From Burkholderiales bacterium (GTDB lineage: Bacteria > Pseudomonadota > Gammaproteobacteria > Burkholderiales > Burkholderiaceae_C): DNA of 64,000 bases. A program made the translations under genes and the position numbers. A model generated the notes under the pieces. It was not told the DNA's origin and did no database searches. It was given only the letters and a program-made list of their open reading frames with translations. Positions 35,854 to 51,186 of the stretch are shown here, in pieces. Position 1 is the stretch's first letter. Each line of letters starts with the position of its first letter. The stretch lies in assembly GCA_017307855.1 (NCBI GenBank), contig JAFKGD010000010.1, forward strand, positions 62,001 to 126,000, in the 5' to 3' direction.

Positions 35854-35949
35854 GTCGGGACCGCGGGGTGGCTGCATCCGCTCGTGTCCCCCGCCGGCTG
35901 CGCCGGCTCCTCCTTGACCTCGCTGCGACAGCCACCCCGCGTTCCCGAC
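35854..35949 (-). repeat. Structured intergenic repeat, copy A
   Basis: Outer 21-bp arms 35854-35874 and 35929-35949 pair at 20 of 21 positions. Between them an inner hairpin GCCGGC-TGC-GCCGGC (35893-35907) is flanked by two conserved unpaired boxes: on the minus strand GCAGCGAGGTCAAGGAGGA before the hairpin and GGGGGACACGAGCGGA after it. The element fills the gap between the mscS start and the inositol monophosphatase stop. It is the same architecture as the copies at 43.8, 43.9, 50.95 and 51.1 kb. Confidence 0.85.
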
Positions 35950-35972
35950 GGGGCGTGTCGCGCTGCGAGGCT

Positions 35973-36983
35973 TCAGTTGCGGCGCGGAGGGCGTTGCGCG
36001 GGGCGAAACTCGCCGGGTTCGCTGGCGGGTCGGGGGATGGCCTTGAGGCGGCGGCGCGCGGGGGCGGCGGGGACTTCGTCCTCTGGCGTTTCGGCCGCGG
36101 GGATTTCTTCTTCGACGGAGGCGGCCGATTCACCGGCGGCGGCTGCATGCACGGCCATCTTGTCGGCCACACCGGCGAATTTGCTGTATTTGGCCAGCAG
36201 CGGCACCAGTTGGCCGTAGATGCGCGGGTTGCCGGCCACGCATTCGCGTTGTTCGATGAAGTCGGCCTCGCCCGTGAAGTTGCCGATCAGGCCACCGGCT
36301 TCGGTGACCAGCAGCGAGCCGGCCGCCACGTCCCAGGGGTTGAGGCCGGTTTCGAAGAAGCCATCGGTGAAGCCCGCGGCCACGTAGGCCAGATCGAGCG
36401 CGGCGGCGCCGGGGCGGCGCAGGCCGGCCGTGCGCTGCATCACGTCGCCCATCATCTGCAGGTACTGGTTGAAGTTGTCGGCCGGGCGGAACGGGAAGCC
36501 CGTGGAGATCAGGCATTCCTGCAGGCGGGTGCGCTTGGAGACGCGGATGCGCCGCTCGTTCATGTACGCGCCGCGCCCGCGCGTGGCGGTGAAGAGGTCG
36601 TTGCGGCTGGGGTCGTAGATGACGGCTTGTTCCACGCGGCCGCGCACGGCCAGAGCGATGCTGACGCAGTACACGGGAAAGCCGTGGATGAAGTTGGTGG
36701 TGCCGTCCAGCGGATCGATGATCCAGACGTGATCGGAATTCGGGTTGCCGTGCGTGGTGCCGGTTTCCTCGCCCAGGATCCCGTGGTCGGGGTAGGCGGT
36801 GAGCAGGGTCTCGATGATGATCTGCTCGGCGGCCTGGTCCACTTCCGTCACGAAGTCGTTCACCTGCTTTTGCGAGATGCGCACCGATTCCACGTCGAGC
36901 GCGGCGCGGTTGATGATGGCGCCGGCGGCGCGTGCGGCCTTGATGGCCACGTTGAGCATGGGGTGCAGGTTGGAGGACGACAT
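35973..36983 (-). CDS. suhB: Inositol monophosphatase family protein (SuhB-like)
   Basis: A 336-residue magnesium-dependent phosphatase. Metal-site motifs are [29 protein letters not shown] (DPLDGT) and the C-terminal [18 protein letters not shown]. SuhB dephosphorylates inositol phosphates in vitro and, in enterobacteria, also assists rRNA transcription antitermination. The first about 265 residues are the enzyme; about 70 further residues are a Glu/Ala/Pro/Arg-rich tail ending [10 protein letters not shown], which is common in Burkholderiales members. The start [20 protein letters not shown] is used. It diverges from trmJ. Confidence 0.92.
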
Positions 36984-37142
36984 GGATTGTGTGAAGAGCA
37001 TCCGCGCACGGCGCGCGCAGGTGGAAGGCGGGGGCCGGCGATGCGGCCAAGGGCGGGATTTTAACCCCGGCGGCCTTCCGCTGCAGGGCGCCGCCGGCCG
37101 GCTGCGACAATCGCGGGCTGCCCGCAGCGCATCCCGCCGTCC

Positions 37143-37889
37143 ATGATCACCCGCTTCATCCTCATCCAGACCAGCCACAGCGGCAACGTGGGCGCTGCCG
37201 CGCGGGCGCTCAAGGTGATGGGCTTCGACGATCTGGTGCTGGTGGCCCCGCGCTGGCCCGACGTCCTCACGCGCGAGGAGACCGTGCAGCGTGCCAGTGG
37301 CGCCACCGACGTGCTGGAGCGCACGCGCATCGTCGCCACGCTCGACGAGGCGCTGGAGGGCATCACCCACCTGTGCGCCACCGCCATGACGCCGCGCGAC
37401 TTCGGCCCGCCCACGGTGGCGCCGCGTGCGCACTTCGCGCAACTGGCTCCGCGCATGGCGGACGCTGCGGGGCAGGGCGTGGCCTTTCTTTTCGGTTCCG
37501 AACGCTTCGGCATGCGCAACGAAGACGTGTATCGCTGCCACACCTGCCTGTCGATCCCGACCGCGCCGGGCTACGGATCGCTCAACCTGGCGGCAGCCGT
37601 GCAGCTGATCGCCTACGACTGGCGCGAGGCGCTGGCCGCGCAAGGCCAGGGTTTTGCGGTGACGCCGGCCACGCCCGAGGCGGCGCCGGCCGATGCGCAG
37701 GCGGTGGCGGGCCTGCTGGCGCACTGGGAGCAGTCGCTCACCGCCATCGGCTTCCTCGATCCCGCCGCGCCCAAGAAGCTCATGCCCCGGCTCAACCAGC
37801 TGTTCAACCGCGCGCAGCTCACGCAGGAAGAGATCCACATCCTGCGCGGCGTGGCCAAGGCGATGGCCCAGCCGCCGCGCGATCGCTAG
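37143..37889 (+). CDS. trmJ: tRNA (cytidine/uridine-2'-O-)-methyltransferase TrmJ
   Basis: A 248-residue SPOUT methyltransferase that modifies position 32 of several tRNAs with S-adenosylmethionine. The knotted-fold motifs are [20 protein letters not shown] (motif 1 with Asn and Arg), [20 protein letters not shown] (motif 2) and [20 protein letters not shown] (motif 3). The C-terminal dimer segment ends [14 protein letters not shown]. It precedes cysE by 84 bp on the same strand, an order seen across Burkholderiales. Confidence 0.95.
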
Positions 37890-37973
37890 GGCCTGAGTCT
37901 CAAAGGCCGCGGTGCGAGCGGGGATGGGGGCGCGGCGATAGACTTCCCGCTCATCTGCTGATAACGACAAGAC

Positions 37974-38750
37974 ATGTTCGCCCGCCTGCGCTCCGACATC
38001 CAGTGCATCCTCGACCGCGACCCGGCCGCGCGCAATGCGTGGGAGGTGCTCACGTGTTATCCGGGCCTGCATGCGCTGGTGATGCACCGCCGGGCGCACT
38101 GGTGCTGGAACCATGGCTTCAAATGGCTGGGCCGTTTCATCTCGCACGTCTCGCGCTGGCTGACCGGCATCGAGATCCACCCGGGTGCGAAGATCGGCGA
38201 GCGCGTGTTCTTCGACCATGCCATGGGCGTGGTGGTCGGCGAGACGGCCGAGATCGGCGACGGCTGCACCATCTACCAGGGCGTGACGCTGGGCGGCACC
38301 TCGCTCTACAAGGGCGAGAAGCGCCACCCGACGCTGGGCCGCGACGTGGTGGTGAGCGCCGGCGCCAAGGTGCTGGGCGGATTCGAGGTGGGTGACGGTG
38401 CCAAGATAGGCAGCAATGCGGTGGTCATCAAGCCCGTGCCGGCCGGTGCGACGGCGGTGGGTATTCCGGCGCGCATCATTCCGTCGAAGACCGGCACCAG
38501 CGCCGACGTGACCGACGCGCCCCGGCCGCAGTTCACGGCCTACGGCATCACGCAGGACGACGATCCGCTGAGCCAGGCGATGCGCAAGCTGATCGACAGC
38601 GCCTCGGGTCAGGAGAACCAGATCGCGCTGCTCTGGCAGGCCATCGAGAAACTCTCTGCAGCGCAGGTCACGCCAGACTGCGTGCCCGACGAAGCCGCCC
38701 GCAAGGCGCGCTTCGAGGCCGAGCAGCTCAACCAGCTGGTCGGCAAGTAG
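37974..38750 (+). CDS. cysE: Serine O-acetyltransferase CysE
   Basis: A 258-residue enzyme making O-acetylserine from serine and acetyl-CoA, the first step of cysteine synthesis. The N-terminal helical part ([37 protein letters not shown]) is followed by the left-handed beta-helix with hexapeptide repeats: [40 protein letters not shown] and [16 protein letters not shown]. The catalytic Asp and His are in FFDHAMG. The C-terminal residues past the helix are longer than the minimal NifP-type, with an extra helical tail. Confidence 0.96.
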
Positions 38751-38777
38751 GACCCAGGGCGACAGCGCCGGGCCGCG

Positions 38778-39365
38778 TCACTTCTTCTTCGGCCGGAAGG
38801 CGCGGCAGATGGCGTCGTCGGTCTCGATGAAGGGTCCGCCGATGAGGTCGATGCAGTAGGGCACGGCTGCGAAGATGCCGGGCACGAGTTGCGCGCCGGC
38901 GCTGTCCTTCAGGCCCTCGAGCGTTTCCTGGATCGACTTCGGCTGGCCGGGCAGATTGATGATCAGGCTCTGGCCGCGGATCACCGCCACCTGGCGCGAG
39001 AGGATGGCCGTGGGTACGAAGCGCAGGCTGATCTGCCGCATCTGCTCGCCGAAGCCGGGCATCTCTTTTTCGGCCACGGCCAGCGTGGCCTCGGGCGTGA
39101 CGTCGCGTGCGGCCGGGCCCGTGCCGCCGGTGGTGAGCACCAGCGAGCACCCGGCATCCACCAGCTCGATCAGGGCCGCACTGATGCCTGCCTGCTCGTC
39201 CGGGATGAGCCGGGGTTCGAATTCGATGGGGTTGCGCACGGCGCGCGTGAGCCAGTCGCGCAGCGCGGGCAGGCCCTTGTCTTCGTAGACGCCAGCGGAG
39301 GCGCGGTCGCTCACCGAGACGATGCCGATGCGCACGGGTGCCAGTGCAGGGGTGCTGTCAGTCAT
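38778..39365 (-). CDS. mog: Molybdopterin adenylyltransferase Mog
   Basis: A 195-residue enzyme that adenylates molybdopterin before molybdenum insertion. Motifs: RIGIVSVSDRASAGVYEDKG, CSLVLTTGGTGPAARDVTPE and LSRQVAVIRGQSLIINLPGQ. MogA and MoaB are hard to separate, but SDRASxGVYxDKG and length favour Mog. The molybdoenzyme served is probably NasA, encoded at 51-54 kb. The start at 39365 overlaps the darP stop by 8 bp, so the genes are coupled. Confidence 0.93.
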   Translation of the reverse strand: MTDSTPALAPVRIGIVSVSDRASAGVYEDKGLPALRDWLTRAVRNPIEFEPRLIPDEQAGISAALIELVDAGCSLVLTTGGTGPAARDVTPEATLAVAEKEMPGFGEQMRQISLRFVPTAILSRQVAVIRGQSLIINLPGQPKSIQETLEGLKDSAGAQLVPGIFAAVPYCIDLIGGPFIETDDAICRAFRPKKK

Positions 39366-40002
39366 TGCCGTCGTCGATGTCGTCGGATTGTGCGGTGTCA
39401 TCGTCGCCGCTGAGCGCCGCGCGCACCAGCTGGAAGATCTCGCGGTAGGCGCGGCCGTGGCGCGGTGCCAGGCCGGGCTTCTCGGGCACGGCGTCCTTGC
39501 GGGCCTGGCGCACCAGCGCGCGCAACTGCTGGCTGTCGGTGGCCGGGTGGGCGTTCAGCCAGTCGCCCACGTCATCGTCGTGCGCGATCAGGCGCTCGCG
39601 CCATTGCTCGGCCTGGTGCAGCACCAGCGTCTGCGCAGCCGAGCCTTCGCGTTGCTCGTCGAGCGCGGCGCGCACGGCGGCCAGCGTCTCCTCGTCGAGC
39701 TGGCGCATGAGCTTGCCGATGAACTGCATCTGGCGGCGGCGGCCTTCGAAGTTGGTGATGCGGCGCACCTCGTCGAGCGCGTCGGCCAGCTTGTCGGGCA
39801 GGCCCAGCGGCTCCATCAGGTCGGCGCGCAGGGTCAGCAGGTCTTCGCCGAGCTTCTGCAGCGCAGCGCTCTCGCGCTTGAGATCGGTCTTGCTCTGTTC
39901 GGTCGTGCCTTTGAGCTCGGCCTTGAGTTCGAGGTCGAGCTCGCTGCCTTCGGCCACGAAGTGGCCACGAACGAAGTAGCCTTTTTTGGGTTTGCGGGAC
40001 AT
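39358..40002 (-). CDS. darP: Ribosome biogenesis factor DarP (YjgA/DUF615)
   Basis: A 214-residue acidic/basic helical protein that associates with late 50S assembly intermediates. The core LKRESAALQKLGEDLLTLRA, ALDEVRRITNFEGRRRQMQF, IGKLMRQLDEETLAAVRAAL and ERLIAHDD are the DUF615 pattern. The start MSRKPKKGYFVRGHFVAEGS is chosen over an upstream in-frame ATG in the pmbA promoter. It diverges from pmbA over 64 bp, an arrangement conserved from gamma- to betaproteobacteria. Confidence 0.93.
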   Translation of the reverse strand: MSRKPKKGYFVRGHFVAEGSELDLELKAELKGTTEQSKTDLKRESAALQKLGEDLLTLRADLMEPLGLPDKLADALDEVRRITNFEGRRRQMQFIGKLMRQLDEETLAAVRAALDEQREGSAAQTLVLHQAEQWRERLIAHDDDVGDWLNAHPATDSQQLRALVRQARKDAVPEKPGLAPRHGRAYREIFQLVRAALSGDDDTAQSDDIDDGND

Positions 40003-40066
40003 GGGATGGGGACGTTGCGGGGGCCCGGCGCACGCGGCGGGGGCGACAAGTATCATAGCCGCCGAT

Positions 40067-41476
40067 ATGAGCACTCCTTCCCGCGCCAAGCCCTCCCGTA
40101 CCCCCAGGCCCTCGTCTTCCGTGCAAGCCGCCAGCGGCTTCAGCTACAGCCGCGGCTTCTTCGAGGAACTGGTCGATTCGGCGCTGGCCCACGCGAAGAA
40201 GCTGGGCGCCACCGATGCGGGTGCCGAGGCGTCCGAAGGCTGCGGCCTGTCGGTGAGCGTGCGCCGGGGCAAGCTCGAAACCGTGGAGCGCAATCGCGAC
40301 AAGTCGCTGGGCGTCACCGTTTACCTGGGTCAGCGGCGCGGCAATGCCAGCACGTCCGACTTCTCGCGCGCCGCGATCGAGCAGACCGTGCAGGCCGCCT
40401 ACGACATCGCGCGTTTCACGGCCGCCGATCCGGTCGCCGGCCTGCCAGATGCCGAGGACATCGCGCAGCAACAACCCGACCTCGACCTGTTCCACCCCTG
40501 GGCCATCACCAGCGAAGAAGCGGCCGAGCTGGCACTGCGCTGCGAGCAGGCGGCGCTTTCCACCGACCGGCGCATCACCAACAGCGAAGGCGCCGGCGTA
40601 TCGGCGCAGCAGAGCCATTTCTTCAGCGCGCACACGCGGGGCTTCCGGGGCGGCTATGCCAGCTCGCGCCACAGCCTCTCGGTGGCCCCGATCGCCGGGC
40701 GCGGCGACGGCATGCAGCGCGATGCGTGGTATTCGTCGATGCGCTCGCCCAATGAACTGGCCAGCCCCGAGTCGGTGGGGCGCTACGCGGCCGAACGCGC
40801 GCTCTCGCGCCTGAAGTCGCGCAAGATCGCCACCACCGAATGCCCGGTGCTGTTCGAGTCGCCGCTGGCCGCCGGCCTGCTGGGCGGCTATGTGCAGGCC
40901 ACCAGCGGCGGCGCGCTCTATCGCAAGAGCAGCTTCCTGCTCGATTCGCTGGGCAAGCCCGTACTGGCCGACCACATCGACATCGACGAAGACCCGCACC
41001 TGGCGCGCGGCAAGGGTAGCGCGCCGTTCGACGAGGAGGGCGTCGCCACGCATGCGCGCCGCGTGGTCGAGGCCGGTCGCGTGCAGGGCTACTTCCTGTC
41101 GAGCTACTCGGCGCGCAAGCTCGGCATGAAGACCACGGGCAACGCGGGCGGTTCGCACAACCTCGTGCTCACCTCGCGCCTCACGCGGCCGGGCGACGAC
41201 CTCGACGCCATGCTGCGCAAGCTGGGCACCGGCCTGTTCGTGATCGAGCTCATGGGGCAGGGCGTGAACTACGTGACGGGCGACTATTCGCGCGGTGCCA
41301 GCGGCTTCTGGGTGGAGAACGGCCGCATCGCCTTTCCCGTCGAAGAGATCACCATCGCGGGCAACCTCAAGGACATGTTCCGCGGCATCGTGGCCGTGGG
41401 CGCCGATGCGTACAACTACGGCGCCAAGACGGTGGGCTCGGTGCTGATCGAGCGCATGAAGGTGGCCGGCGCCTGA
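40067..41476 (+). CDS. pmbA: Metalloprotease PmbA (TldE)
   Basis: A 469-residue subunit that forms a heteromeric peptidase with TldD, trimming small peptides such as microcin B17 and degrading CcdA. The family segments are GCGLSVSVRRGKLETVERNR, DKSLGVTVYLGQRRGNASTS, HSLSVAPIAGRGDGMQRDAW, LDSLGKPVLADHIDIDEDPH and NAGGSHNLVLTSRLTRPGDD. TldE subunits lack the zinc HExxxH of TldD, and none is seen here. tldD is not in the window. A bidirectional terminator follows. Confidence 0.95.
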   Translation: MSTPSRAKPSRTPRPSSSVQAASGFSYSRGFFEELVDSALAHAKKLGATDAGAEASEGCGLSVSVRRGKLETVERNRDKSLGVTVYLGQRRGNASTSDFSRAAIEQTVQAAYDIARFTAADPVAGLPDAEDIAQQQPDLDLFHPWAITSEEAAELALRCEQAALSTDRRITNSEGAGVSAQQSHFFSAHTRGFRGGYASSRHSLSVAPIAGRGDGMQRDAWYSSMRSPNELASPESVGRYAAERALSRLKSRKIATTECPVLFESPLAAGLLGGYVQATSGGALYRKSSFLLDSLGKPVLADHIDIDEDPHLARGKGSAPFDEEGVATHARRVVEAGRVQGYFLSSYSARKLGMKTTGNAGGSHNLVLTSRLTRPGDDLDAMLRKLGTGLFVIELMGQGVNYVTGDYSRGASGFWVENGRIAFPVEEITIAGNLKDMFRGIVAVGADAYNYGAKTVGSVLIERMKVAGA

Positions 41477-41500
41477 GCACGCGCGGCCTCGCCCGGATGA

Positions 41501-41527
41501 CAAAAGGGGCGCCGAGGCGCCCCTTGT
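41501..41527. terminator. Bidirectional terminator between pmbA and yqeY
   Basis: AAGGGGCGCC / GGCGCCCCTT hairpin with a two-base apex, flanked by ACAAA on the left and TTGTAC on the right. The A/T flanks on both sides allow termination of both convergent genes. Confidence 0.8.
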
Positions 41528-41531
41528 ACTT

Positions 41532-41978
41532 TCAGCTGGCCAGCGCGGCCTTCACAGCCGCCGAGACCTGTCCCATCTCGGCCTTGCCCGCCAGGCGCGT
41601 CTTCACGGCGCCCATCACCTTGCCCATGTCGCCAGGGCCCGAGGCTCCCAGTTCGGCCACGATGGCCTTGACTTCAGCGGCGATTTCTTCGGCCGACAGG
41701 CGTTGAGGCAGGTAGGCCTCGAGCACCTTGATCTCCGACGCTTCCTTCCCGGCCAGGTCGGTGCGGCCGGCCTGGTTGAAGGCGGCCACCGAATCCTTGC
41801 GCTGCTTGATCAGCTTGTCGACGATGGCCACGACAGCCGCATCGTCGAGCTCGACGCGTTCGTCCACTTCTTTCTGCTTCATCGCGGCGGTGAGCAGGCG
41901 GATGGTGCCCAGGCGCTCGGTGTCCTTGGCGCGCATGGCGGCCTTCATGTCGTCGGTGATCTGGTCCTTGAGGCTCAT
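41532..41978 (-). CDS. yqeY: GatB/YqeY domain protein
   Basis: A 148-residue helical protein starting MSLKDQITDDMKAAMRAKDT, containing LGTIRLLTAAMKQKEVDERV and ending in the GatB tail-like domain GPGDMGKVMGAVKTRLAGKA. The domain is shared with the C-terminus of the amidotransferase subunit GatB and binds tRNA, but the free-standing protein's role is not settled. It lies downstream of rpsU, as in most proteobacteria, separated from it by a terminator hairpin. GGAG precedes the ATG. Confidence 0.93.
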   Translation of the reverse strand: MSLKDQITDDMKAAMRAKDTERLGTIRLLTAAMKQKEVDERVELDDAAVVAIVDKLIKQRKDSVAAFNQAGRTDLAGKEASEIKVLEAYLPQRLSAEEIAAEVKAIVAELGASGPGDMGKVMGAVKTRLAGKAEMGQVSAAVKAALAS

Positions 41979-42020
41979 GGTGTGCTCCTGAGTTGGCAGG
42001 GAGAAAAAGAACAGCGGAAA

Positions 42021-42056
42021 ACAGAAAACCCGCGCCTGGCGTCCCGAGCGCGGGTT
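42021..42056 (-). terminator. Terminator/attenuator after rpsU
   Basis: On the minus strand a 9-bp stem AACCCGCGC / GCGCGGGTT with a 12-base loop is followed by TTCTGTTTT. It separates rpsU from yqeY; some read-through probably feeds yqeY. Confidence 0.8.
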
Positions 42057-42099
42057 CTGTGGACCTGCCGCGAAGACAGGCCTGAAAAGCGGGAACCGC

Positions 42100-42312
42100 T
42101 CAGTACAGCTTCTTGGGCAGCTGCATGCTGCGAACGCGCTTGTAGTGGCGCTTCACGGCGGCTGCCTTCTTGCGCTTGCGTTCGGCGGTGGGCTTTTCGT
42201 AGAACTCGCGTGCGCGCAGTTCGGTCAGCAGGCCCAGCTTTTCGATGGTGCGCTTGAAGCGGCGCAGGGCGACGTCAAACGGCTCGTTTTCTTTAACGCG
42301 GATGGTGGTCAT
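42100..42312 (-). CDS. rpsU: 30S ribosomal protein S21
   Basis: A 70-residue basic protein starting [20 protein letters not shown], then [20 protein letters not shown] and ending MQLPKKLY. Length and sequence match bacterial S21, which contacts the 3' end of 16S rRNA near the anti-Shine-Dalgarno. A TATAAT promoter lies 130 bp upstream. The longer in-frame extension to 42399 lies in the leader and is not coding. Confidence 0.97.
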
Positions 42313-42441
42313 GACTAAATGGATTTCCGTCCAGTGTGCGGGCAGAGGATTCCGGGGAAGATCGGGCCCCGGCTTCGTGCGTCGCTTGTTTTTCCCCAAC
42401 TTCGGTGATCAGGCCGTTGGGGTTTGCCAGCAAAGCCCGCC

Positions 42442-42469
42442 ATTATACGGTGATCGGGCCGGCTGGCAA
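42442..42469 (-). promoter_or_regulatory. Sigma-70 promoter of rpsU
   Basis: On the minus strand TTGCCA (42469-42464) is separated by 16 bp from a perfect TATAAT (42447-42442). It is the only strong consensus promoter in the 173-bp gap upstream of rpsU, leaving a leader of about 125 nt. Confidence 0.8.
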
Positions 42470-42485
42470 CGACGACGGCCACCCC

Positions 42486-43712
42486 TCATGCCGCGCCAGC
42501 GGCTGCGGCGGGCTCCAGCGCCTGCGCGCAAGCATGGCCGCTGGCCCAGGCCCACTGGAAGTTGTAACCGCCCAGCCAGCCGGTCACGTCCGCCACTTCG
42601 CCGATGAAGAACAGGCCCGGCACGCGCGATTCCATCGTCTGCGACGAGAGCTGGCGGGTGTCGACCCCGCCGGCCGTCACCTCGGCCTTGGCGTAGCCCT
42701 CGGTGCCTGACGGGGTGAGTTCCCAGCCGGAAATGCGGGCGGCCAGGCTGGCCAGCGCCTTGTCGGGGGCCTCATTGACGGGGCGGGCCAGCGCCGGGTC
42801 GCTGGCGGCCCAGGCCTCGGCGAGGCGCCCTGGAAGCAGGGCGCCGAGTTCATTGACCACCAGGCGTCTGGAGCGCAGCTTGGCATCGGCCAGTTGGCCG
42901 GCCACGTCGGTGCCGGGCGCCAGATCGATGCGCAGCGGCGTGCCGGCCTGCCAGTAGCTGGAGATCTGCAGCACGGCCGGGCCCGAGAGGCCGCGGTGGG
43001 TGAACAGCAGGTCTTCGTCGAAGGCCATGCGGTTCTTCTTGCCGCCGGTTTCGATGCGCACGGGAAGCGCCAGGCCGGCCAGGCCCGCGTAGGGCTGCCA
43101 GCCGGCACCGTCGAAGGTGAGCGGCACCAGCGCCGGGCGCAGCGGCACGACGTCCAGCCCGAACTGGCGCGCGAGGCGCTGGCCGAAATCGGAGGCGCCG
43201 ATCTTGGGAATGGAGAGGCCGCCCGTGGCCACCACCACGCTGTGCGCCTCAACGGTGCCACGGTCGGTATCGAGCTCGAATCGCTGGCTGCCGCCCGTGC
43301 GCACGGCCTTTACGCCGCAGGGCTGCCAGCGCTCGACGCCGCCGGCGGCGCACTCGGCCAGCAGCATGTCGATCAGGTCAGTGGCCGAGCGGTCGCAGAA
43401 CAGTTGGCCCTTGTGCTTTTCGTGGAAGGCGATGCCGTGGCGCTGCACCAGCGCGATGAAGTCCTGCGGGGTGTAGCGTGCCAGCGCCGAGCGGCAGAAG
43501 TGCGGGTTGTCCGAGATGAAGTGCTTGTGCGGCGCGCGCGGATCGAGGTCGCGGTTGGTGAAGTTGGCGCGGCCGCCGCCCGAGATGCGGATCTTCTCGG
43601 CCACCCTGGGGCTGTGGTCGATGAGCAGCACCTTCAGGCCGCGCTGGCCGGCGATGCCCGCGCAGAACAGGCCGGCGGCGCCGGCACCGAGGATGATGGC
43701 GTCGAAGTTCAA
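42486..43712 (-). CDS. BaiN/RdsA-family FAD-dependent oxidoreductase (HI0933-like)
   Basis: A 408-residue flavoprotein. The FAD-binding N-terminus is NFDAIILGAGAAGLFCAGIA (GxGxxG), followed by EKIRISGGGRANFTNRDLDP, a family hallmark, VVVATGGLSIPKIGASDFG, and the C-terminal FIGEVADVTGWLGGYNFQWA. Members include BaiN of bile acid reduction and uncharacterised proteobacterial proteins; substrate here is unknown. The start is probably a TTG at 43712, since no ATG or GTG lies at the conserved position; confidence in the exact start is low. It ends 173 bp before rpsU. Confidence 0.88.
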   Translation of the reverse strand: MNFDAIILGAGAAGLFCAGIAGQRGLKVLLIDHSPRVAEKIRISGGGRANFTNRDLDPRAPHKHFISDNPHFCRSALARYTPQDFIALVQRHGIAFHEKHKGQLFCDRSATDLIDMLLAECAAGGVERWQPCGVKAVRTGGSQRFELDTDRGTVEAHSVVVATGGLSIPKIGASDFGQRLARQFGLDVVPLRPALVPLTFDGAGWQPYAGLAGLALPVRIETGGKKNRMAFDEDLLFTHRGLSGPAVLQISSYWQAGTPLRIDLAPGTDVAGQLADAKLRSRRLVVNELGALLPGRLAEAWAASDPALARPVNEAPDKALASLAARISGWELTPSGTEGYAKAEVTAGGVDTRQLSSQTMESRVPGLFFIGEVADVTGWLGGYNFQWAWASGHACAQALEPAAAAGAA

Positions 43713-43788
43713 AGGGGTGATCTCTTGAGGGAAGGCGCGATTTTGCCTCGTCGGTTCATGAGGGAGGGACCACGTTGGTGGCTCGCCG

Positions 43789-43888
43789 GTCGGGATCGCG
43801 GGGTGGCGGCCTCCGCTCGTGTCCCCCGGATCGGCTGAGCCGATCCTCCTCCTTGACCTCGCTGCGACCGCCACCCCACGCTCCCGAC
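43789..43888 (-). repeat. Structured intergenic repeat, copy B
   Basis: Outer arms 43789-43809 and 43868-43888 pair at 19 of 21 positions; the inner hairpin is GGATCGGC-TGA-GCCGATCC (43828-43846). On the minus strand the boxes read GCAGCGAGGTCAAGGAGGA and GGGGGACACGAGCGGA, as in copy A. The inner stem sequence differs completely from copy A yet is perfectly paired. It lies upstream of the BaiN-like gene, back to back with copy E. Confidence 0.85.
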
Positions 43889-43924
43889 AGGGGTTCCGCA
43901 CGACCGCCACGCGACGATAGTGTG

Positions 43925-44020
43925 GATCACGGCGGCAGTGGTGCCTTGCAAAGCGAGGTCAAGGAGGAGGCCGAAGGCCGGGGGACACGAGCGGCGCAAG
44001 GCTCCGCTGGCGCCGTGATC
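43925..44020 (+). repeat. Structured intergenic repeat, copy E (inverted relative to B)
   Basis: Outer 25-base arms 43925-43949 and 43996-44020 pair at 22 positions; the inner hairpin is GGCC-GAA-GGCC (43969-43979). On the plus strand the boxes are AAAGCGAGGTCAAGGAGGA and GGGGGACACGAGCG. With copy B it accounts for nearly all of the 332-bp gap between the BaiN-like gene and the small membrane gene at 44045. Confidence 0.85.
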
Positions 44021-44044
44021 GGGGCAGGATGTCGGTGAGAACGA

Positions 44045-44242: not shown

Positions 44243-45393
44243 CGCGTGGCCTCCGGGGCGGCGGGCACTGCCAGCTCGGGGTCGCGCGCCACCGCGGCTG
44301 GCGAGCGCCGCACCCACCACAGGTACAGCCCGCTGCCCAGCACGATGATGGTCAGGATGTCGAGCACCGCCCACAGGATCTGCATCGGCAGACCGCCGTA
44401 GTCGCCGAAGTGCAGCGGCTGCGACACCAGCAGTGCCGACAGGTACCACGGCAGGGCGCGGCTGTCGGTCACCTCGCCGGTCATCGCATCGACCAGCACG
44501 GGCTTGAACAGGCGTGAGGTGAGGTCTTCGTCGCCACGAAGGAAGACGCCGTAGTGGTGCGGCGTGGAGAAGCTGGTGCCCGGGAAGGCGATGAAGCCAA
44601 TCTTCATGCCGGGTGCAAAGGCCCTGGCCGACTGCACGGCCTTTTCCAGAGAGCCGAGCTGGCCCGTGAGCGGCGGCCGGTCGCGGTACGGCGCCACCAT
44701 CTCGGCCACCTGGTCGTTCTGCCAGTACTTGATGACGAGATCGGCCCACGTGTTGATCATGCCGGTGGCACCCACCACGAACAGCCACGTCAGCGTGACG
44801 ATGCCCAGCAGGTTGTGCAGGTCGAGCCACTTCACGCGCGTGGACCGTTCGCGCCGCACCTCGCCGAACGCCAGCTTGCGCATGAACGGCGAGTACAGCA
44901 CCACGCCCGACACCACGGCGATCAGCAGCAGCAGCCCCATGAAGCCCAGGAACAGCTTGCCCGCCAGTCCCATGAACAGGTCGACGTGCAGCGAATTCAT
45001 CACGTGGATGAAGGTGCCTTCGAGCTTCGGCTCGGCCAGCGGCTGGCCGGTGCGCGCGTCGACGGCGACCTGGCGCATGTCGGTCTCGTCCGTCGGCGTG
45101 TTGGAGAGCGTGACGTACCAGACGCGGTCGTCGTCGGGCTCCTGCGAGACGAACATGCCGCCCTTGCCGGGATAGCGCGCGGTGGCCACCTGCATCACCG
45201 TGTCCAGACTCGCGCGCGGCGCATCGGGCGCCAGCTCCGGCGCCTCCACCTCGGTGCCCAGCAGATGGCCGATCTCGTGGTGGAAGATCAGCGGCAGGCC
45301 CGTGAGGCACAGCAGCAGCATGAACACGGTGCAGACCAGGCTGGTCCACTTGTGCAGCCACGACCAGACCTTGATCGCGCGGGAACTGAGCAT
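44239..45393 (-). CDS. PepSY-associated transmembrane protein (putative ferric-siderophore reductase)
   Basis: A 384-residue membrane protein with four helices: KVWSWLHKWTSLVCTVFMLL at the N-terminus, two in the middle (FLGFMGLLLLIAVVSGVVLY and LLGIVTLTWLFVVGATGMIN) and one near the C-terminus. PepSY domains lie in the periplasmic loops. Conserved His residues in the helices (LHKW, LHNLLG, MNSLHVDLFMG) may bind haem. Such proteins are co-encoded with TonB siderophore receptors and reduce or release iron in the periplasm. It lies 109 bp downstream of a receptor and shares its orientation. Confidence 0.87.
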   Translation of the reverse strand: MLSSRAIKVWSWLHKWTSLVCTVFMLLLCLTGLPLIFHHEIGHLLGTEVEAPELAPDAPRASLDTVMQVATARYPGKGGMFVSQEPDDDRVWYVTLSNTPTDETDMRQVAVDARTGQPLAEPKLEGTFIHVMNSLHVDLFMGLAGKLFLGFMGLLLLIAVVSGVVLYSPFMRKLAFGEVRRERSTRVKWLDLHNLLGIVTLTWLFVVGATGMINTWADLVIKYWQNDQVAEMVAPYRDRPPLTGQLGSLEKAVQSARAFAPGMKIGFIAFPGTSFSTPHHYGVFLRGDEDLTSRLFKPVLVDAMTGEVTDSRALPWYLSALLVSQPLHFGDYGGLPMQILWAVLDILTIIVLGSGLYLWWVRRSPAAVARDPELAVPAAPEATR

Positions 45394-45502
45394 GTCGTTT
45401 GAATCCTTCGTCGGGGGGCGGCTGGACGTTCAGCGGTTCATCAAAAGCACAGCCCCGCGGGCCGAAGGAAGCGCGCGCGGGTGTGCGGGATGGGTTGGCA
45501 GG

Positions 45503-47719
45503 TCAGAAGTCGATGCTGGCGCTGAGCACGAAGGTGCGGGGCTGGCCCAGCACCAGATAGCTCTGGCCGGGATAACCGCCGGCCGAGGCCCAGTAGCTCT
45601 TGTCGAACAGGTTCTCGACACGAGCCCGCAGGGTGACCGGCTTGCCGCCGGCTTCGATCAGATAGCGCGCGCCCAGGTCGAAACGCGTCCAGGCGGGGAT
45701 GCTCTGCGTGTTCGACGCGTTGGCGTACTGTTTGCCGGTACGGATCACGCGGCCGTCGACGGCCAGGCCGCGCACACCTGGCACGTCCCAGTCGGCGCCC
45801 AGGTTGAGCTGGTAGTCGGGCACGCCCACGATGTTCTTGCCGTTGTTGGCCGCTACCTGGCTGTTGACCTGCTTGGCATCCAGCAGCGTGAGGCCGCCCA
45901 GCAGGCGCAGGCCCCTGGCGGCTTCGCCGTACACGTTGAACTCCAGCCCCCGGCTTTCCTGGCCGTACTCGCCGGGCACGTTGCCGAACGCCAGGAAGGC
46001 CGACGACTTGCGGATGGTGAAGTAGGACACGCTGGCGCCCAGCGTGCCGGCTTCGTACTTGGCGCCGATTTCGGTCTGGCGTGCCGCATACGGCTTGAGG
46101 TTGGTCGGCGTGCCGCCTAGCGGCGTGATGGTCGCGCCCTTGATCAGTCCTTCGATGTAATTGCCGTACACCGACACGTTCCTGTTCAGCTTGAACACCA
46201 CGCCGCCCACGGGCGAGGTGCGGCTCTGGCTGTAGGCTGCCGTCACTGCACCGGAATTCGGGTCGTAATCGGTCGTGTCCATCTTCTGATGGCGCGCGCC
46301 CAGCGTGAGCAGCAGGGTGTCCTGCAGGAACGACAACGTATCGGACACGGCGAGGCTGGCCGTCTGCGTTTCGTTGATCGTCGTCGGCGCCGTCATGGAA
46401 CCGTTGGCGAAGAAGTTCGCCGGGGGCGGCGGCACGGAGACCGGGCTGTAGAGGTTGCCTGCGAAGCCCGCGAAGTTCGAGAACGCCGATCCGTTGCGCT
46501 CCTTGAGGCCATAGCCGTTGGCCGCGACGGTGACCGTGTGGCCCACGGAGCCGGTGCTGAAGCTGGCGCGCGCACCGACTTCACCGGTCAGGGCGACTTC
46601 CTTGCGATGGTTGTCGAAGCGGTACGTGGAGGTGTCGCCGGCCGCGCTGGTCAGCGTCGGATTGGCCAGCGAGTTCTGTTCTTCGCCGTGGCGTGCGCCA
46701 ATCGCGGCCCAGGCCGTGATCCGATCGTTGATGTCCCACTCGCCACGCAGGGTGCCGAAGGCGTCACGGCTGTTGCCGAAGGTCCAGGGTTGGGCGAAGT
46801 TGCGGCTGGCATCCGGCGCCGCTGCGATCGGTGTCGTGGCGGCTGCGGGCGAATACACGCTCGGCCGGATGGCCGTGCCGTAGTTCTCCTGGAAGCCCGC
46901 GTCGGCCGACAGGCGGACGTTGCGGCTGCGCCAGTCCAGCCCGACGCCCGCCACGTTGAGCTTCTGGTTCTCGCCGTCGACGGCCAGATCGCCGTCACGG
47001 CGCGCGACGTTCAGGCGCACGCCGCTCGACTGATCGGGGCCGAAGCGTCGCGCGATGTCGGCGCCCACGCTCAGCTGGCCCCCGCTTTCCACGCCGAAGG
47101 TGATGCGGTTGAGGGGCTCGTTCGGAGCGCGCTTGGGCACGACGTTGATGAGTCCGCCCACGCCGCCGCCGGCCGCCGCCGCGCCGCCCGAGCCACCGCC
47201 CGACAGGAAGGTGTTGGCGCCGCGGAAGACTTCCACCCGCTCGATGAATTCGGACGCGGTGTACTGGCGCGGCACGAGACCGTAGAGACCGTTGTAGGTC
47301 ACGTCATCGGAATACACCGGGAAGCCGCGGATGATGTAGGCCTGCTGGAAGTTGCCATAGCCGCGCGTCAGGCGCACACCCGGATCGTTCTGCAGAACGT
47401 CGCCGATGCTGCGGGCCTGCTGGTCCAGGATGAGATCGTGGGTGTAGGCCGTGAACGAGAACGGCGTCTCCATCGTGTCCTGGTTGCCCAGCACGCCGAT
47501 GCGCGCACCGCGCGCCACTTGTCCGCCCGCGAACGGCTTGGGCAGGCCTTCGGCAGAAGCGTCGGCACTCACCGTGACGGTGCTGAGCGTGATGCCGGTG
47601 TCGGTAGCCGCATTGGCCGTCGTGGGCGCGGTCTGGGCCAGGGCGGACACGCCATGCAGCGCGATGGCTGCGGCCAGGACGGTGGGGCGCAGCGCGAATG
47701 TGGTGATCTGGGTGGGCAT
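45503..47719 (-). CDS. TonB-dependent siderophore receptor
   Basis: A 738-residue outer-membrane receptor. It has a signal peptide (LAAAIALHGVSALAQ), an N-terminal plug (GVLGNQDTMETPFSFTAYTH, SIGDVLQNDPGVRLTRGYGN, QQAYIIRGFPVYSDDVTYNG) and a barrel ending FVLSASIDF with terminal Phe. Length and the RVEVFRGANTFLSGGGSGGA segment are typical of FhuA/FpvA-type siderophore receptors; the exact siderophore is not readable. A Fur box overlaps its promoter, and the PepSY reductase follows, so it is part of an iron-uptake operon. Confidence 0.93.
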   Translation of the reverse strand: MPTQITTFALRPTVLAAAIALHGVSALAQTAPTTANAATDTGITLSTVTVSADASAEGLPKPFAGGQVARGARIGVLGNQDTMETPFSFTAYTHDLILDQQARSIGDVLQNDPGVRLTRGYGNFQQAYIIRGFPVYSDDVTYNGLYGLVPRQYTASEFIERVEVFRGANTFLSGGGSGGAAAAGGGVGGLINVVPKRAPNEPLNRITFGVESGGQLSVGADIARRFGPDQSSGVRLNVARRDGDLAVDGENQKLNVAGVGLDWRSRNVRLSADAGFQENYGTAIRPSVYSPAAATTPIAAAPDASRNFAQPWTFGNSRDAFGTLRGEWDINDRITAWAAIGARHGEEQNSLANPTLTSAAGDTSTYRFDNHRKEVALTGEVGARASFSTGSVGHTVTVAANGYGLKERNGSAFSNFAGFAGNLYSPVSVPPPPANFFANGSMTAPTTINETQTASLAVSDTLSFLQDTLLLTLGARHQKMDTTDYDPNSGAVTAAYSQSRTSPVGGVVFKLNRNVSVYGNYIEGLIKGATITPLGGTPTNLKPYAARQTEIGAKYEAGTLGASVSYFTIRKSSAFLAFGNVPGEYGQESRGLEFNVYGEAARGLRLLGGLTLLDAKQVNSQVAANNGKNIVGVPDYQLNLGADWDVPGVRGLAVDGRVIRTGKQYANASNTQSIPAWTRFDLGARYLIEAGGKPVTLRARVENLFDKSYWASAGGYPGQSYLVLGQPRTFVLSASIDF

Positions 47720-47739
47720 CGATGCGTACCTGTTGGAAT

Positions 47740-47758
47740 AGGAATGGTTCGCATTATC
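47740..47758 (-). promoter_or_regulatory. Fur box upstream of the TonB receptor
   Basis: On the minus strand GATAATGCGAACCATTCCT matches 13 of 19 positions of the Fur consensus GATAATGATAATCATTATC, including an uninterrupted GATAATG. It ends 20 bp upstream of the ATG, in the only AT-rich stretch of the 182-bp gap. Confidence 0.75.
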
Positions 47759-47901
47759 TGTCGCATGTAGCGATGCCGCGCCGCGGACTCGTCACCGCAG
47801 GGCTTTTGCGTCGCGAAAAAACATCAGGGTCCGCAAGGGACCCCGATGGCATGACGGCACGAAGACGCTGCGGACCCCGGCGGCCCGCGCGGCGGACGGA
47901 C

Positions 47902-49029
47902 TCAGCCCTTCCAGGTGAACGGAAACTTCAGTTGCTTGAAGAAGCCGTTGGGCACGTAGTCGCCCAGCACGCCGTACTGCCTGGGCCACACCTTGTCGCT
48001 CTTCACGGCCGTGCCGAACAGGTAGTCCAGGAAGGCGAAGTGCGCGGCGTAGTTGCGGTCGAGCGCTTCCTCGTCCTGGGCGTGATGCCAATGGTGGAAA
48101 TTGGGTGTGACGATGACGTAGCGCAACGGGCCCAGCCGTACGCTCACGTTGGCGTGGTTGAACACCGCCTGGAAGCCGACGATGACGATGTAGGCGTCGA
48201 TCACTTCCTTGGAGAAGCCGAACACGAAGATGGGCGCCAGCACCAGCGTGCGGGTGATCAGCAGCTCCAGGATGTGCTGGCGCGAGCCGGCCAGCCAGTC
48301 CATGCTTTTGACGCTGTGGTGCACGGCATGCAGGCGCCAGAGCAGCGGCACCTCGTGATACGCGCGGTGCGTCCAGTACTGCACCAGGTCGGCCACCAGG
48401 ATGATGAGGAAGAGGGCCACCCAGAAGTTAAGCCCCGCCACCCAGCCACGGATGCCATCGTGCGCGGCCCAGCCGAAGAACTTGTGCACCATCAGGTTGG
48501 TGGCCAGCAGCACGAAGCCCACGATCATGTGGTTGACGATGAAGTGGTGCAGGTCGGTCTGCCACTCGGGGCGGAACACGGGCTGGTCCTTCCGCAGCGC
48601 GAACAGCTTCTCGATGAAGATGAAGATCAGCGCCGAGCCCAGCAGGTCGAGGATGAACCAGTCCAGTCCGATGTAGGGCGTGTGGTCGGGGAAGTTGGGA
48701 TCGACCTCGACCTTGTGCCCGCCCAGCAGCGCCGAGACCGCTACCAGCGCAAAGGCGAAGCTCGACAGATATCGCGAGCGGTTGAACACGATGTTGGCCA
48801 GACTCAGGCCACCCCCGAGCACCATGGACCAGAACAGCAGTTGCCGGATCATGCTCACGTCGTAGCTGCGGCGCAGCTCGGGCGTGGTCAGGTATTCGGG
48901 GAAATGGAAGGCCAGCACGCCCAGCAGGCACAGCACGCCCAGCGTGAGCGCGATGACACCGCTAACCAGGCCGCGCCCGGTGCGCAGTTCGCCGTGGCTT
49001 TCGGAGAGTTCGTTGAGTTTGTCCAGCAT
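47902..49029 (-). CDS. Sterol desaturase/fatty acid hydroxylase-family membrane protein
   Basis: A 375-residue membrane di-iron enzyme. The histidine clusters are present: LHHFIVNH, WTHRAYHE, LHAVHHSVKS, and NFHHWHHAQ, which bind the two irons. Helices surround them (GLVSGVIALTLGVLCLLGVL, LVSALLGGH). Members hydroxylate or desaturate lipids such as sterols, ceramides, carotenoids or hopanoids; the substrate is unknown. Start at MLDKLNELSESHGELRTGRG (49029). The gene is isolated between the TonB receptor and cobA, with no operon partners. Confidence 0.9.
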   Translation of the reverse strand: MLDKLNELSESHGELRTGRGLVSGVIALTLGVLCLLGVLAFHFPEYLTTPELRRSYDVSMIRQLLFWSMVLGGGLSLANIVFNRSRYLSSFAFALVAVSALLGGHKVEVDPNFPDHTPYIGLDWFILDLLGSALIFIFIEKLFALRKDQPVFRPEWQTDLHHFIVNHMIVGFVLLATNLMVHKFFGWAAHDGIRGWVAGLNFWVALFLIILVADLVQYWTHRAYHEVPLLWRLHAVHHSVKSMDWLAGSRQHILELLITRTLVLAPIFVFGFSKEVIDAYIVIVGFQAVFNHANVSVRLGPLRYVIVTPNFHHWHHAQDEEALDRNYAAHFAFLDYLFGTAVKSDKVWPRQYGVLGDYVPNGFFKQLKFPFTWKG

Positions 49030-49102
49030 GCGGGCTCCCGTCTTGTCGTTCTTTGACGGCCCGCAGTGTAGCGAGGAGCGTGCCGCATCCCGCGGCACGG
49101 GA

Positions 49103-49903
49103 TCAGGCGGCGCGGCTGGTGCCGCAGGGCGCCGCAGAACCGGACTGCAACGCCCGCACGCCGCGCAGCACGTCGCCCACCACGATCACCGACGGGCTGC
49201 CGAGTCCATCGCGCTCGATGGTGGTGACCAGATCTCCCAACGTGGTGAGGACGTGGCGCTCGTCCGGCAGGCTGGCGCGCTGCACCACGGCGGCGGGCGT
49301 CGCGCCGGGCAGGCCGCGCATCAGTTCACGATGGATGGCGGCGGCGCCGCTCATGCCCATGTAGATCACCAGCGTCAGCCTGGCGTCGCGCGCCGTGGCG
49401 GCCAGTTGTGCCCAGTCGCAGCCTGCATCGCCCGGCTTGGCATGGCCGGTGACGAACACCACGCCGTGCGCATGCGCGCGGTGCGTGAGCGGCACGCCCA
49501 GCGAAGTGACGGCCGCCAGGCCCGAGGTGATGCCGTTGATCACCTCGACCTCGATGCCGGCCTCGCGCAGGTGTTCGATCTCCTCGCCGCCGCGGCCGAA
49601 GATGAACGGATCGCCGCCCTTGAGCCGCACCACGCGCTCGCCTTCGTGCACGGCGGTGATCATGAGCTTCTCGATGAAAGCCTGCGGCGTGCTCTTGCAG
49701 CCGCCCCGCTTGCCGACGTGGACGATGCGTACGCCGGCCTGCGCATGCGCCAGCACCTCGTCATTGACAAGGTCGTCCACCAGCAGCACGGTGGCTTCGC
49801 GGATGGCGCGCGCGGCCTTGAGCGTGAGCAACTCCGGGTCGCCCGGGCCGGCACCGACGAGGATGCAGCGGCCGGGCAGGGCAGGGGTGTTGGTGGAGTT
49901 CAT
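49103..49903 (-). CDS. cobA: Uroporphyrinogen-III C-methyltransferase CobA
   Basis: A 266-residue SAM-dependent enzyme that makes precorrin-2, the precursor of siroheme and cobalamin. Motifs: RCILVGAGPGDPELLTLKAA, VVRLKGGDPFIFGRGGEEIE, SGLAAVTSLGVPLTHRAHAH and VIYMGMSGAAAIHREL. It is the single-domain SUMT type, not the fused CysG. Siroheme is the prosthetic group of NirB, encoded upstream in the same direction, so it supplies the nitrite reductase cofactor. It follows the ybiB-like gene by 16 bp. Confidence 0.95.
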   Translation of the reverse strand: MNSTNTPALPGRCILVGAGPGDPELLTLKAARAIREATVLLVDDLVNDEVLAHAQAGVRIVHVGKRGGCKSTPQAFIEKLMITAVHEGERVVRLKGGDPFIFGRGGEEIEHLREAGIEVEVINGITSGLAAVTSLGVPLTHRAHAHGVVFVTGHAKPGDAGCDWAQLAATARDARLTLVIYMGMSGAAAIHRELMRGLPGATPAAVVQRASLPDERHVLTTLGDLVTTIERDGLGSPSVIVVGDVLRGVRALQSGSAAPCGTSRAA

Positions 49904-49919
49904 GGTGTTCTTGTGCGTG

Positions 49920-50864
49920 TCAGGCGGCAACGGCGCGCGGCGGCATGGCGGATGCCGCTTCTGCCTGGCGCGCGACCGCGTCGATATGTGTCACCTGGCG
50001 CGCGAGCCCGGGCGGCAACGGCAACTCGCCCGCCAGCACGCGGCGCGTGTAGTCGGCCGTGGCGGCCACGTCGATGTCGGCCGGCAGGCCGGGCACCTCG
50101 GAAAGCGTTCCGGGCTCTTGTTGCTGCAGCACGCTGTGCACGCCGCCGACGTAGGCGTCGTAGCGCGGCGTGCGGCGCGGATCGGCCGCCACCTCGCCTT
50201 CGAGCCCGCGCGAGAGCACGACGTTCATGGCGCGCGCGCCGAAGGTGTCGTGCAGCATGGGCAGGTATTCGGGGTGCGTGTAGGCCGTGATCAGCAGCGA
50301 CGGCCCTGGCGTGGGCGCCAGCAGCTTCACCACGCTGTGGCCCGGGTTGCGCAGGCCGACCACTTCGCGCACCGACAGCAGCCGTGCCAGGCCCGGGTGC
50401 AGTGCGGCGGTGCCAATGTGCGCGACTTCGCCTGGCGTCACGGCGCGCGGCGCGGCCAGCGGCCCGATGCCCAGGGCCTGCAGCACGTCGCTGGCCAGCA
50501 CGCGGCGGGCTTCGGTGCGCATGCCGTGCAGCAGCACGGGCCAGCCTTCGCGCGCCAGCAGCATCGCGAGCAGCGGTGTGAGCACGGGCAGGCGGCGTGC
50601 GCCGTTGTAGCTGGGCAGCACGATCAGCGGTCGTGCGCTGATAGGAAAGGCGGTGACGCGCGCGTGCACGGCGTCCAGGAAGCCGCACATCTCGGCCGTG
50701 GTTTCGCCCTTGATACGCATGGCCAGGCAGAAGGCGCCGATCTCCAGGTCGGTCACGGCGCCGTCGAGCACCTGACCGAACAGGTCGGCCGCCTGCGCGC
50801 GGTCGAGCGGGCGTGCGCCGTCCTTGCCGCGTCCGATTTCCTTGATGTAGTGGCCGATGCTCAT
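49920..50864 (-). CDS. ybiB: TrpD2/YbiB-like glycosyltransferase-fold, DNA-binding protein
   Basis: A 314-residue homologue of anthranilate phosphoribosyltransferase: MSIGHYIKEIGRGKDGARPL, ALDRAQAADLFGQVLDGAVT, GAFCLAMRIKGETTAEMCGF and VVGLRNPGHSVVKLLAPTPG. The phosphoribosyl diphosphate and anthranilate sites of true TrpD are not conserved in this family; E. coli YbiB binds nucleic acid and is SOS-induced. No LexA box is visible here. In Burkholderiales the gene often sits with nitrate assimilation genes, as it does here between nasA and cobA. Function in that context is unknown. Confidence 0.87.
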   Translation of the reverse strand: MSIGHYIKEIGRGKDGARPLDRAQAADLFGQVLDGAVTDLEIGAFCLAMRIKGETTAEMCGFLDAVHARVTAFPISARPLIVLPSYNGARRLPVLTPLLAMLLAREGWPVLLHGMRTEARRVLASDVLQALGIGPLAAPRAVTPGEVAHIGTAALHPGLARLLSVREVVGLRNPGHSVVKLLAPTPGPSLLITAYTHPEYLPMLHDTFGARAMNVVLSRGLEGEVAADPRRTPRYDAYVGGVHSVLQQQEPGTLSEVPGLPADIDVAATADYTRRVLAGELPLPPGLARQVTHIDAVARQAEAASAMPPRAVAA

Positions 50865-50950
50865 GGGTTCATGAATTGTCCCTGAAGCCTCATGACTTCG
50901 GGTTCTATGCCGAATGATGCGGAAAGGTCTTGAGGTGGGTGTGGCGCGCG

Positions 50951-51052
50951 GGATCGCGCCACTGCGGGACTCCCCTCCGCGAATGTCTCCCGCCGTCCTG
51001 CGGACGGCTCCTCCTTGATTTCGCTGCGGGGAATCCCACAGCGTCGCGATCC
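50951..51052 (-). repeat. Structured intergenic repeat, copy C
   Basis: Outer 25-base arms 50951-50975 and 51028-51052 pair at 21 positions; two of the four mismatches become G-U pairs on the minus strand. The inner hairpin is GCCGTCC-TGC-GGACGGC (50992-51008). Boxes on the minus strand: GCAGCGAAATCAAGGAGGA and GGGAGACATTCGCGGA, a second subtype shared with copy D. It lies between nasA and ybiB inside the nitrate operon. Confidence 0.85.
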
Positions 51053-51106
51053 GGGAACGGCCGCGCCACATCGTCGAGAGGTCCGACGTGTCCTGCGCGA
51101 GGGTGT

Positions 51107-51186
51107 CGGGTGCCTTCCGCAGCGAAATCAAGGAGGAGGCTGCGGCACAGCCGCAGCCGGGGGACATTCGCGGAGGAAGGTACCCG
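51107..51186 (+). repeat. Structured intergenic repeat, copy D (inverted relative to C)
   Basis: Outer 12-base arms 51107-51118 and 51175-51186 pair with one wobble and can be extended by three more pairs. The inner hairpin is GGCTGCGGC-ACA-GCCGCAGCC (51138-51158). On the plus strand the boxes are GCAGCGAAATCAAGGAGGA and GGGGGACATTCGCGGA. Copies C and D together fill the 347-bp gap upstream of ybiB. Confidence 0.85.

Follow-up and report, generated by a model that had tools for sequence, protein, structure and literature searches.

Five copies of a dispersed intergenic element of about 100 bases lie in the window analysed here (a 64,000-nucleotide stretch of a Burkholderiales bacterium, GenBank assembly GCA_017307855.1, contig JAFKGD010000010.1, positions 62,001 to 126,000 of the forward strand), and comparison with their relatives indicates that the strand that carries two conserved boxes (the box strand) is the one whose fold is maintained by selection. 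To judge by the alignments, covariation in the elements is overwhelming, and the boxes evidently form an antiparallel non-canonical helix with each other. Each unit has an outer stem of ~25-30 bp of free sequence, then a G.A-rich block, then box 1 opposite box 2 and finally a short capping hairpin; its conserved letters are T[CA]AAGGAGGA and GGGGGACA. An initial annotation of the window, made from the sequence alone, had proposed a five-copy intergenic family, and a covariance model (R1) recovered the same five copies (E 7e-15 to 5e-21; 101-111 bases long, GC 0.70-0.78), with no sixth at E≤1. Copies B and C, and likewise D and E, are head-to-head pairs, a feature absent from that annotation. 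The copies and their parts are as follows.

35849..35953, minus strand: copy A, single, whole fold (R1 62.6 bits, E 7e-15)
35908..35917, minus strand: box 1 of copy A, TCAAGGAGGA (exact match)
35885..35892, minus strand: box 2 of copy A, GGGGGACA (exact match)
43784..43892, minus strand: copy B, left half of head-to-head pair B/C (R1 68.4 bits)
43847..43856, minus strand: box 1 of copy B (exact two-box pattern search)
43820..43827, minus strand: box 2 of copy B (exact two-box pattern search)
43893..43922, no strand: spacer of pair B/C, 30 bases between model ends (covariance-model coordinates)
43923..44023, plus strand: copy C, right half of pair B/C (R1 85.1 bits, E 5e-21)
43959..43968, plus strand: box 1 of copy C (exact two-box pattern search)
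43980..43987, plus strand: box 2 of copy C (exact two-box pattern search)
50948..51054, minus strand: copy D, left half of head-to-head pair D/E (R1 70.6 bits)
51009..51018, minus strand: box 1 of copy D (box 1 search, up to 3 mismatches)
50984..50991, minus strand: box 2 of copy D, variant GGGAGACA (box 2 search, up to 3 mismatches)
51055..51091, no strand: spacer of pair D/E, 37 bases (covariance-model coordinates)
51092..51202, plus strand: copy E, right half of pair D/E (R1 71.3 bits)
51128..51137, plus strand: box 1 of copy E (exact two-box pattern search)
51159..51166, plus strand: box 2 of copy E (exact two-box pattern search)

The exact two-box pattern occurs four times in the window against 0.00 expected (100 shuffles), and box 1 alone, with up to 3 mismatches, five times against 0.08, whereas box 2 alone at the same tolerance is no commoner than chance would make it (7 occurrences, with 9.55 expected). 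Several of its details need correction: AAAGCGA precedes box 1 in copy C, and box 2 of copy D departs from the letters given; GAGG/CACGAG belongs to copies A, B and C and GAAA/CATTCG to D and E, not to A, B, E and C, D, respectively; and the outer stems are not all unrelated, A and B having a common sequence there. RNA folding z-scores of the five copies run from -4.7 to -7.4, and the complementary strands also fold (-3.6 to -6.4). The box strand nonetheless folds better in 5/5 copies, by 2 to 12 kcal/mol (box strand vs other strand, in kcal/mol: A, -67.6 vs -65.5; B, -73.0 vs -62.2; C, -60.9 vs -49.1; D, -69.3 vs -59.2; E, -69.3 vs -58.4).

When 25 diverse copies were aligned without gaps, 87.6% of the cells were paired and 34 of the 36 pairs showed double changes (all 32 of the outer stem and two of the four inner pairs). 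Their covariation score was 0.806, where shuffling gave a mean of 0.214 and slid partners gave 0.084-0.185. The score was 0.823 for 148 distinct copies (0.189 shuffled, 0.092-0.154 slid) in an alignment that was fitted to the model and hence leans towards it; the number of pairs with a double change gave no discrimination in that alignment (36 vs 34.8, with 28 of 500 shuffles reaching 36). Conserved pairing with changed sequence, which had been read from the window copies, is thus matched by strong covariation in both stems.

The boxes had been described as invariant and single-stranded, a description that does not survive: across relatives they vary, and they co-vary in register with each other. 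At box 1 position 7 and box 2 position 3, the 299 distinct copies read A/G in 278 cases, G/A in 14, A/A in two and G/G in one, with C or T opposite G in four; at box 1 position 6 and box 2 position 4 they read G/G in 291, A/T in five, A/G in two and G/A in one (Fisher tests of coupling, relatedness ignored, 6e-21 and 1e-9). The A.G to G.A swap is found in 14 copies with differing stems from 12 genomes or records, and the A-T pair in five copies from five. As the coupling is antiparallel and in register, box 1 and box 2 face each other. Box variants are under-sampled, because the collection began from exact canonical boxes; TA replaces TC at the start in 64 copies whose boxes are otherwise canonical. 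Two further blocks are non-Watson-Crick in most copies of the 148-copy alignment. One runs G.A, C-G, A.G, G-C and has two mismatch columns (90 G.A and 101 A.G of 148), and the next is tandem G.A/A.G in some copies and Watson-Crick in others. Immediately before box 1, all 63 tandem-G.A copies have G, and 57 of the 59 Watson-Crick copies have A (26 fall in neither class). The motifs taken as fixed and single-stranded therefore adjoin a block that obeys a strict code. Two other structures were considered and rejected: a two-tier G-quadruplex between the GGNGG tracts, because the two middle box positions change in concert (GGAGGACA accompanies GGGGGA of box 1 in 14 of 15 copies, and GAAGGA/GGGTGACA disrupts the tracts together), and a kink-turn beside a CAG bulge, since pairing runs on there in an unchanged register and is Watson-Crick in many copies.

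Wobble pairs distinguish the strands. Arm folds of 186 copies gave 433 G.T pairs and 40 single A.C mismatches on the box strand, against 199 and 312 on its complement, and fixed-register counts gave G.T:A.C of 307:64 and 245:39; this asymmetry shows the box strand to be the folding one. The asymmetry bears on the notion of a double-stranded site, either a cruciform or a gyrase/IHF-type binding site in the manner of BIMEs, which the elements resemble in being palindromic, intergenic and dimeric. A cruciform treats both strands alike, yet the wobble asymmetry is strong and strand-specific, and the free outer-stem sequence would be unreadable to a double-strand reader, so that we consider such a site improbable. 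A structured RNA is a substantial possibility, if one we hold with less than middling confidence: the box strand of each element would be transcribed, either from the spacer or through read-through, and the folded transcript would bind a protein or, alternatively, the ribosome via the AAGGAGG letters, acting in trans or as a sponge, with dispersal as a by-product. The G.U-rich covariation on one strand, which at the level of sequence is what covarying RNA helices display, is in its favour, as are the G.A blocks and the non-canonical covariation between the boxes.

The fold is also kept in place across genera at one site, where a dimer shows compensatory changes. Between pccB (Carboxyl_trans) and pccA (PCC_BT domain), a first element is found at eight loci and a second at seven, the loci coming from Rhodoferax (L049, L115), Hydrogenophaga (L058), a beta-proteobacterial metagenome-assembled genome (L133) and four genomes of the host family; the name pcc was assigned in this analysis (the best NCBIfam matches are accC- and mmdA-type models), and at L039 pccA lies beyond the fetched stretch. 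The first element (7 copies, excluding L039 with its longer inner hairpin) has 14 double-change pairs and a score of 0.380 against 0.185 shuffled and ≤0.074 slid; the second (7 copies) has 9 double-change pairs, a number reached by 1 of 500 shuffles, and scores 0.306 against 0.160 shuffled and ≤0.089 slid. L115 and L133, which are close relatives in these alignments, both carry the A.G to G.A box swap, and five orthologues are unswapped. The first element lies antisense to the genes, yet its G.T pairs number 19 against one A.C. It is conserved on its own strand and so is not a cis element of the pcc mRNA, a point against the structured RNA.

Searches with the covariance model, in the source genome and in relatives, yielded more copies in both. 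The source genome has 18 (150 of 6222 first-look candidates scored), fewer than the dozens that the initial annotation named as support, a number attained in G214 (68 exact-pattern matches at 66 places) and G064 (42). Within the family, 299 genomes were sampled; 74 of them, from 52 of 141 genera, had the exact two-box pattern, and none had a reversed control pattern. The model found elements in 13 of 300 genomes of the order (five of the same family, six of one genus of family f13, two of f21) and in five of 321 of the class (two of the same family, two of f63, and G643, a look-alike); these counts are too low, because only 12-13 candidates per genome were scored, under strict filters. Among the matches listed, model-confirmed copies came from Variovorax, Rhodoferax, Hydrogenophaga, Polaromonas, Acidovorax, Luteimonas, Thermomonas, Stenotrophomonas and others, so the expected spread across Comamonadaceae is borne out by both the pattern and the named-genome scans; the named records and the G genomes overlap in part (L122 and L104 overlap G214), and some pattern matches in the named-genome scan lack stems and are due to chance. 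Of the exact-pattern hits, 34 rows had no outer stem; many of these were coding-like viral or foreign sequence, and a few were true copies with shifted stems. Two of 26 viral stretches (L168, L170) hold model hits, the other 24 lying outside the model run, and one query of phage records found no element. The large Variovorax replicons NZ_CP138514.1, NZ_CP138516.1 and NZ_CP070344.1 have several copies each in places where no feature is listed (the gene table is incomplete). The look-alike in G643, a 1.5 Mb genome (L384, L386, L389 and L393, each at 1501-1604), has boxes TAAAGCGCAGGA and GACGAGCCA, a long outer stem and a capping GGCCGAAGGCC-type hairpin, and may represent a second family with the same architecture.

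Pairing in opposite orientation is the commonest arrangement. Among 149 clusters (from 277 of 282 model hits at 184 loci, mostly without loci of G214, G064 and overlapping loci, and skipping 31 clusters near ends), 75 were head-to-head dimers, with a median spacer of 42 bases (n = 75) and a whole length of about 250 bp, and 68 were single; one was plus-minus, and clusters with same-orientation copies were rare (three plus-plus, one minus-minus-minus, one minus-minus-plus). By crude gene calls (GC-position score, disregarding called ORFs (open reading frames) that overlapped 22 clusters), 44 clusters lay between convergent genes, 65 between tandem genes and 13, of the 122 assignable, between divergent genes, with 27 lacking a context call. 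The preference for convergent and tandem over divergent contexts accords with a structured RNA, against which stands the absence of an orientation bias to mRNA, singles between co-directional genes being 11 sense and 11 antisense. These counts likewise oppose a cis mRNA element. An earlier exact-pattern count (singles 22 sense and 14 antisense; 34 of 143 clusters inside called ORFs) is superseded by the model-based one, because many partners had variant boxes. At one G020 locus, a minus and a plus copy 646 bp apart enclose a DUF2306 membrane-protein ORF. In the window, the sites of A, B/C and D/E each lie between minus-strand genes (ORF list and sequence). Pfam scanning of eight neighbouring ORFs gave matches for five and none for three, supporting both neighbours of D/E (Glycos_trans_3N and molybdopterin oxidoreductase), one of B/C (HI0933-like) and one of A (inositol monophosphatase domain).

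Sequence comparison shows that the dimer has multiplied as a unit in one genome, G214, where a 341-base dimer query (40 of 115 candidate regions scored) returned 29 whole dimers and 11 units of the type-2 half only. Five further copies comprise a type-2-like single (L458), a type-1 single (L456) and three cut by contig ends; singles away from contig ends are thus the type-2 half in 12 of 13, and L456 rules out that all are. The 29 dimers end in TTC[AG]GGG in 23 cases and CCC[CT]GAA in 25, and none of the 19 with both end motifs shares ≥3 flanking bases as a target-site duplication would (two flanking bases are shared in 2 of 19, against 1.6 expected). Nine regions corresponding to the D/E site were fetched from relatives, all of other genera; in the five with both flanks (four had one) the gap is 80-138 bp, against 374-391 in the source genome. 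These five therefore lack the ~255-base pair of elements, which was probably gained in the source lineage. In three G214 loci (L371, L373, L377) the leader of type-2 singles ends at GCTCTGA, a motif whose complement is similar to the opposite end of the unit, so that this half may be a complete unit in its own right. Elsewhere (L263, L267, L268, L270 and L275 of G064, and L328 of G310) the 3' arm of the outer stem and the tail are repeated once or more 3' of a full copy, and look like partial copies added at the 3' end. Such repeats, and the type-2 bias of the G214 singles, are what a retro-element might leave when a reverse transcriptase copies it by way of RNA. RVT_1 was present in 6 of 17 genomes and had no match at E≤0.001 in the other 11, including the source genome (99.95% completeness) and the look-alike G643; as a general mechanism, retro-copying is close to refuted.

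The habit of the elements is that of REPINs: they are intergenic, mostly downstream of genes, rare between divergent genes, dominated by head-to-head dimers (heterodimers included), free of target duplication in the genome tested, and built on a hairpin with a conserved motif (compare the available text of PMC3733652). The initial annotation's contrast with simple REP palindromes was thus overdrawn, and holds for size, fold, tag and linked transposase: in that account REP/REPIN sequences are 20-40 bases, against about 100 here with a bipartite fold, free stem sequence and covarying box helix, and carry a GTAG/CGTC tag, neither form of which is at the helix foot in our alignments. RAYT-linked REPs flank a Y1 gene, whereas the elements have no linked or obligatory one, although CGTC-type REP repeats are likewise described without a linked Y1 gene (PMC3733652). 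Mobilisation by a resident RAYT/TIRYT-type Y1 transposase would suit the head-to-head heterodimers, the intergenic habit and the lack of target duplication, and most carriers do have a Y1 gene: Y1_Tnp (PF01797) was found in 26 of 29 genomes, with and without elements, and in 16 of 21 of a second carrier set (G249 being in both). Box 2 (GGGGACA followed by C, G or T) resembles the motif GGGGWSAS of the TIR repeats of TIRYT genes, apart from a final T, and TIR repeats also occur in dimers and clusters (available text of PMC3733652; subclass 2.1, PMC6006769). In some genomes of the family the Y1 gene is TIRYT-like, flanked by inverted GGGGTCAG repeats (L202, L193, L209 and further Y1_Tnp loci). 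TIR repeats adjoin TIRYT genes, whereas none of 53 Y1 loci had a model hit in the fetched flank (up to ~1.5 kb, less at contig ends), and a looser pattern search there gave one chance match (L210); carriers G020, G249, G289 and G481, like the look-alike G643, have no Y1_Tnp at E≤0.001. With at most a degenerate 8-letter motif in common with TIR repeats, and weakened on these counts, mobilisation by a Y1 transposase is unlikely.

Other known families were compared through their published descriptions. BRE, the Beta-proteobacterial repeat element (Hot et al. 2011, PMC3110155), is given in the available text of that report as about 90 bp (about 75-91 bp), GC-rich (about 69%), mostly intergenic and possibly mobile, occurring also as a conserved 40-60 bp part, in Betaproteobacteria including Comamonadaceae (29 copies in Polaromonas JS666, 13 in Delftia) and Bordetella. 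The window copies have 101-111 bases and GC 0.70-0.78, and host families overlap partly; the Bordetella loci hold tandem copies in place of head-to-head dimers; fold and covariation, shown here, go without mention in the available text on BRE (PMC3110155). On that description alone, BRE may be the same family and is the likeliest candidate for an earlier description of it. If so, the ~80- and ~200-nt transcripts that cover one Bordetella copy (PMC3110155) would favour a structured RNA. Miniature inverted-repeat transposable elements (MITEs) are similarly small, non-coding and dispersed with inverted ends (available text of PMC10969869), from which the elements differ in their lack of target duplication (one genome tested), strand-specific fold and free stem sequence. 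Rfam has no family at gathering score anywhere in the window, and five relatives' loci gave only sub-threshold microRNA hairpins, a point against the structured RNA; nor, among the entries listed, did a search of the open-licence literature find a description of the box motifs.

We tentatively favour, as a reading that may well be right though we hold it short of conviction, a dispersed REPIN-like mobile dimer family that would act through its folded box strand, probably as single-stranded DNA. The dimer would spread as a folded single strand, most likely of DNA (which we favour because the box strand is conserved even where antisense to an operon), and two opposed halves would give each strand one correct fold. 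A putative trans-acting protein would read the purine-purine box helix and cut and join the element; this factor would be neither a Y1 (RAYT-type) transposase nor a reverse transcriptase common to all carriers. Mobility by a strand-specific enzyme, with DNA and not RNA as the working form, is thus a conjecture from sequence.

Several points weigh against it. No mobilising gene was found, where only Y1_Tnp and RVT_1 were searched for, and no protein family was shown to follow element occurrence. To look for an autonomous, gene-bearing copy, we clustered 436 ORFs within 1.5 kb of elements at 141 loci, and the 25 largest groups, inspected by eye, contained no obvious transposase (part of the clusters was searched against Pfam); two of these groups led to the pcc locus. 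A purely selfish element is not expected to compensate mutations at a fixed site, so a host function, which this reading does not account for, is likely. G.U wobble and non-canonical covariation fit RNA equally or better, and BRE, possibly the same family, overlaps transcripts in Bordetella (PMC3110155). The absence of duplication was seen in 19 dimers of one genome, and mutation that favours one strand could contribute to the surplus of G.T pairs.

Taken at its broadest, the family could be a new class of dispersed element, a proposal we regard as speculative and rather doubtful: a strand-specific fold with a covarying purine-purine core would be read by a trans-acting protein common to Comamonadaceae, other Burkholderiales families and relatives of Luteimonas and Stenotrophomonas, and opposed dimers would spread without a Y1 transposase, DDE signature or reverse transcriptase and then persist at fixed sites because they serve the host. 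By the standards of bacterial intergenic repeats the covariation is very strong; it extends to non-canonical pairs and therefore offers a handle on the recogniser, something that would need the folded box strand; several carriers lack both kinds of mobiliser that were tested. The pccB-pccA dimer provides a fixed locus for functional tests, and finding the factor would either add a mobility enzyme or reveal a host RNA- or DNA-binding system overlooked in well-sequenced genera.

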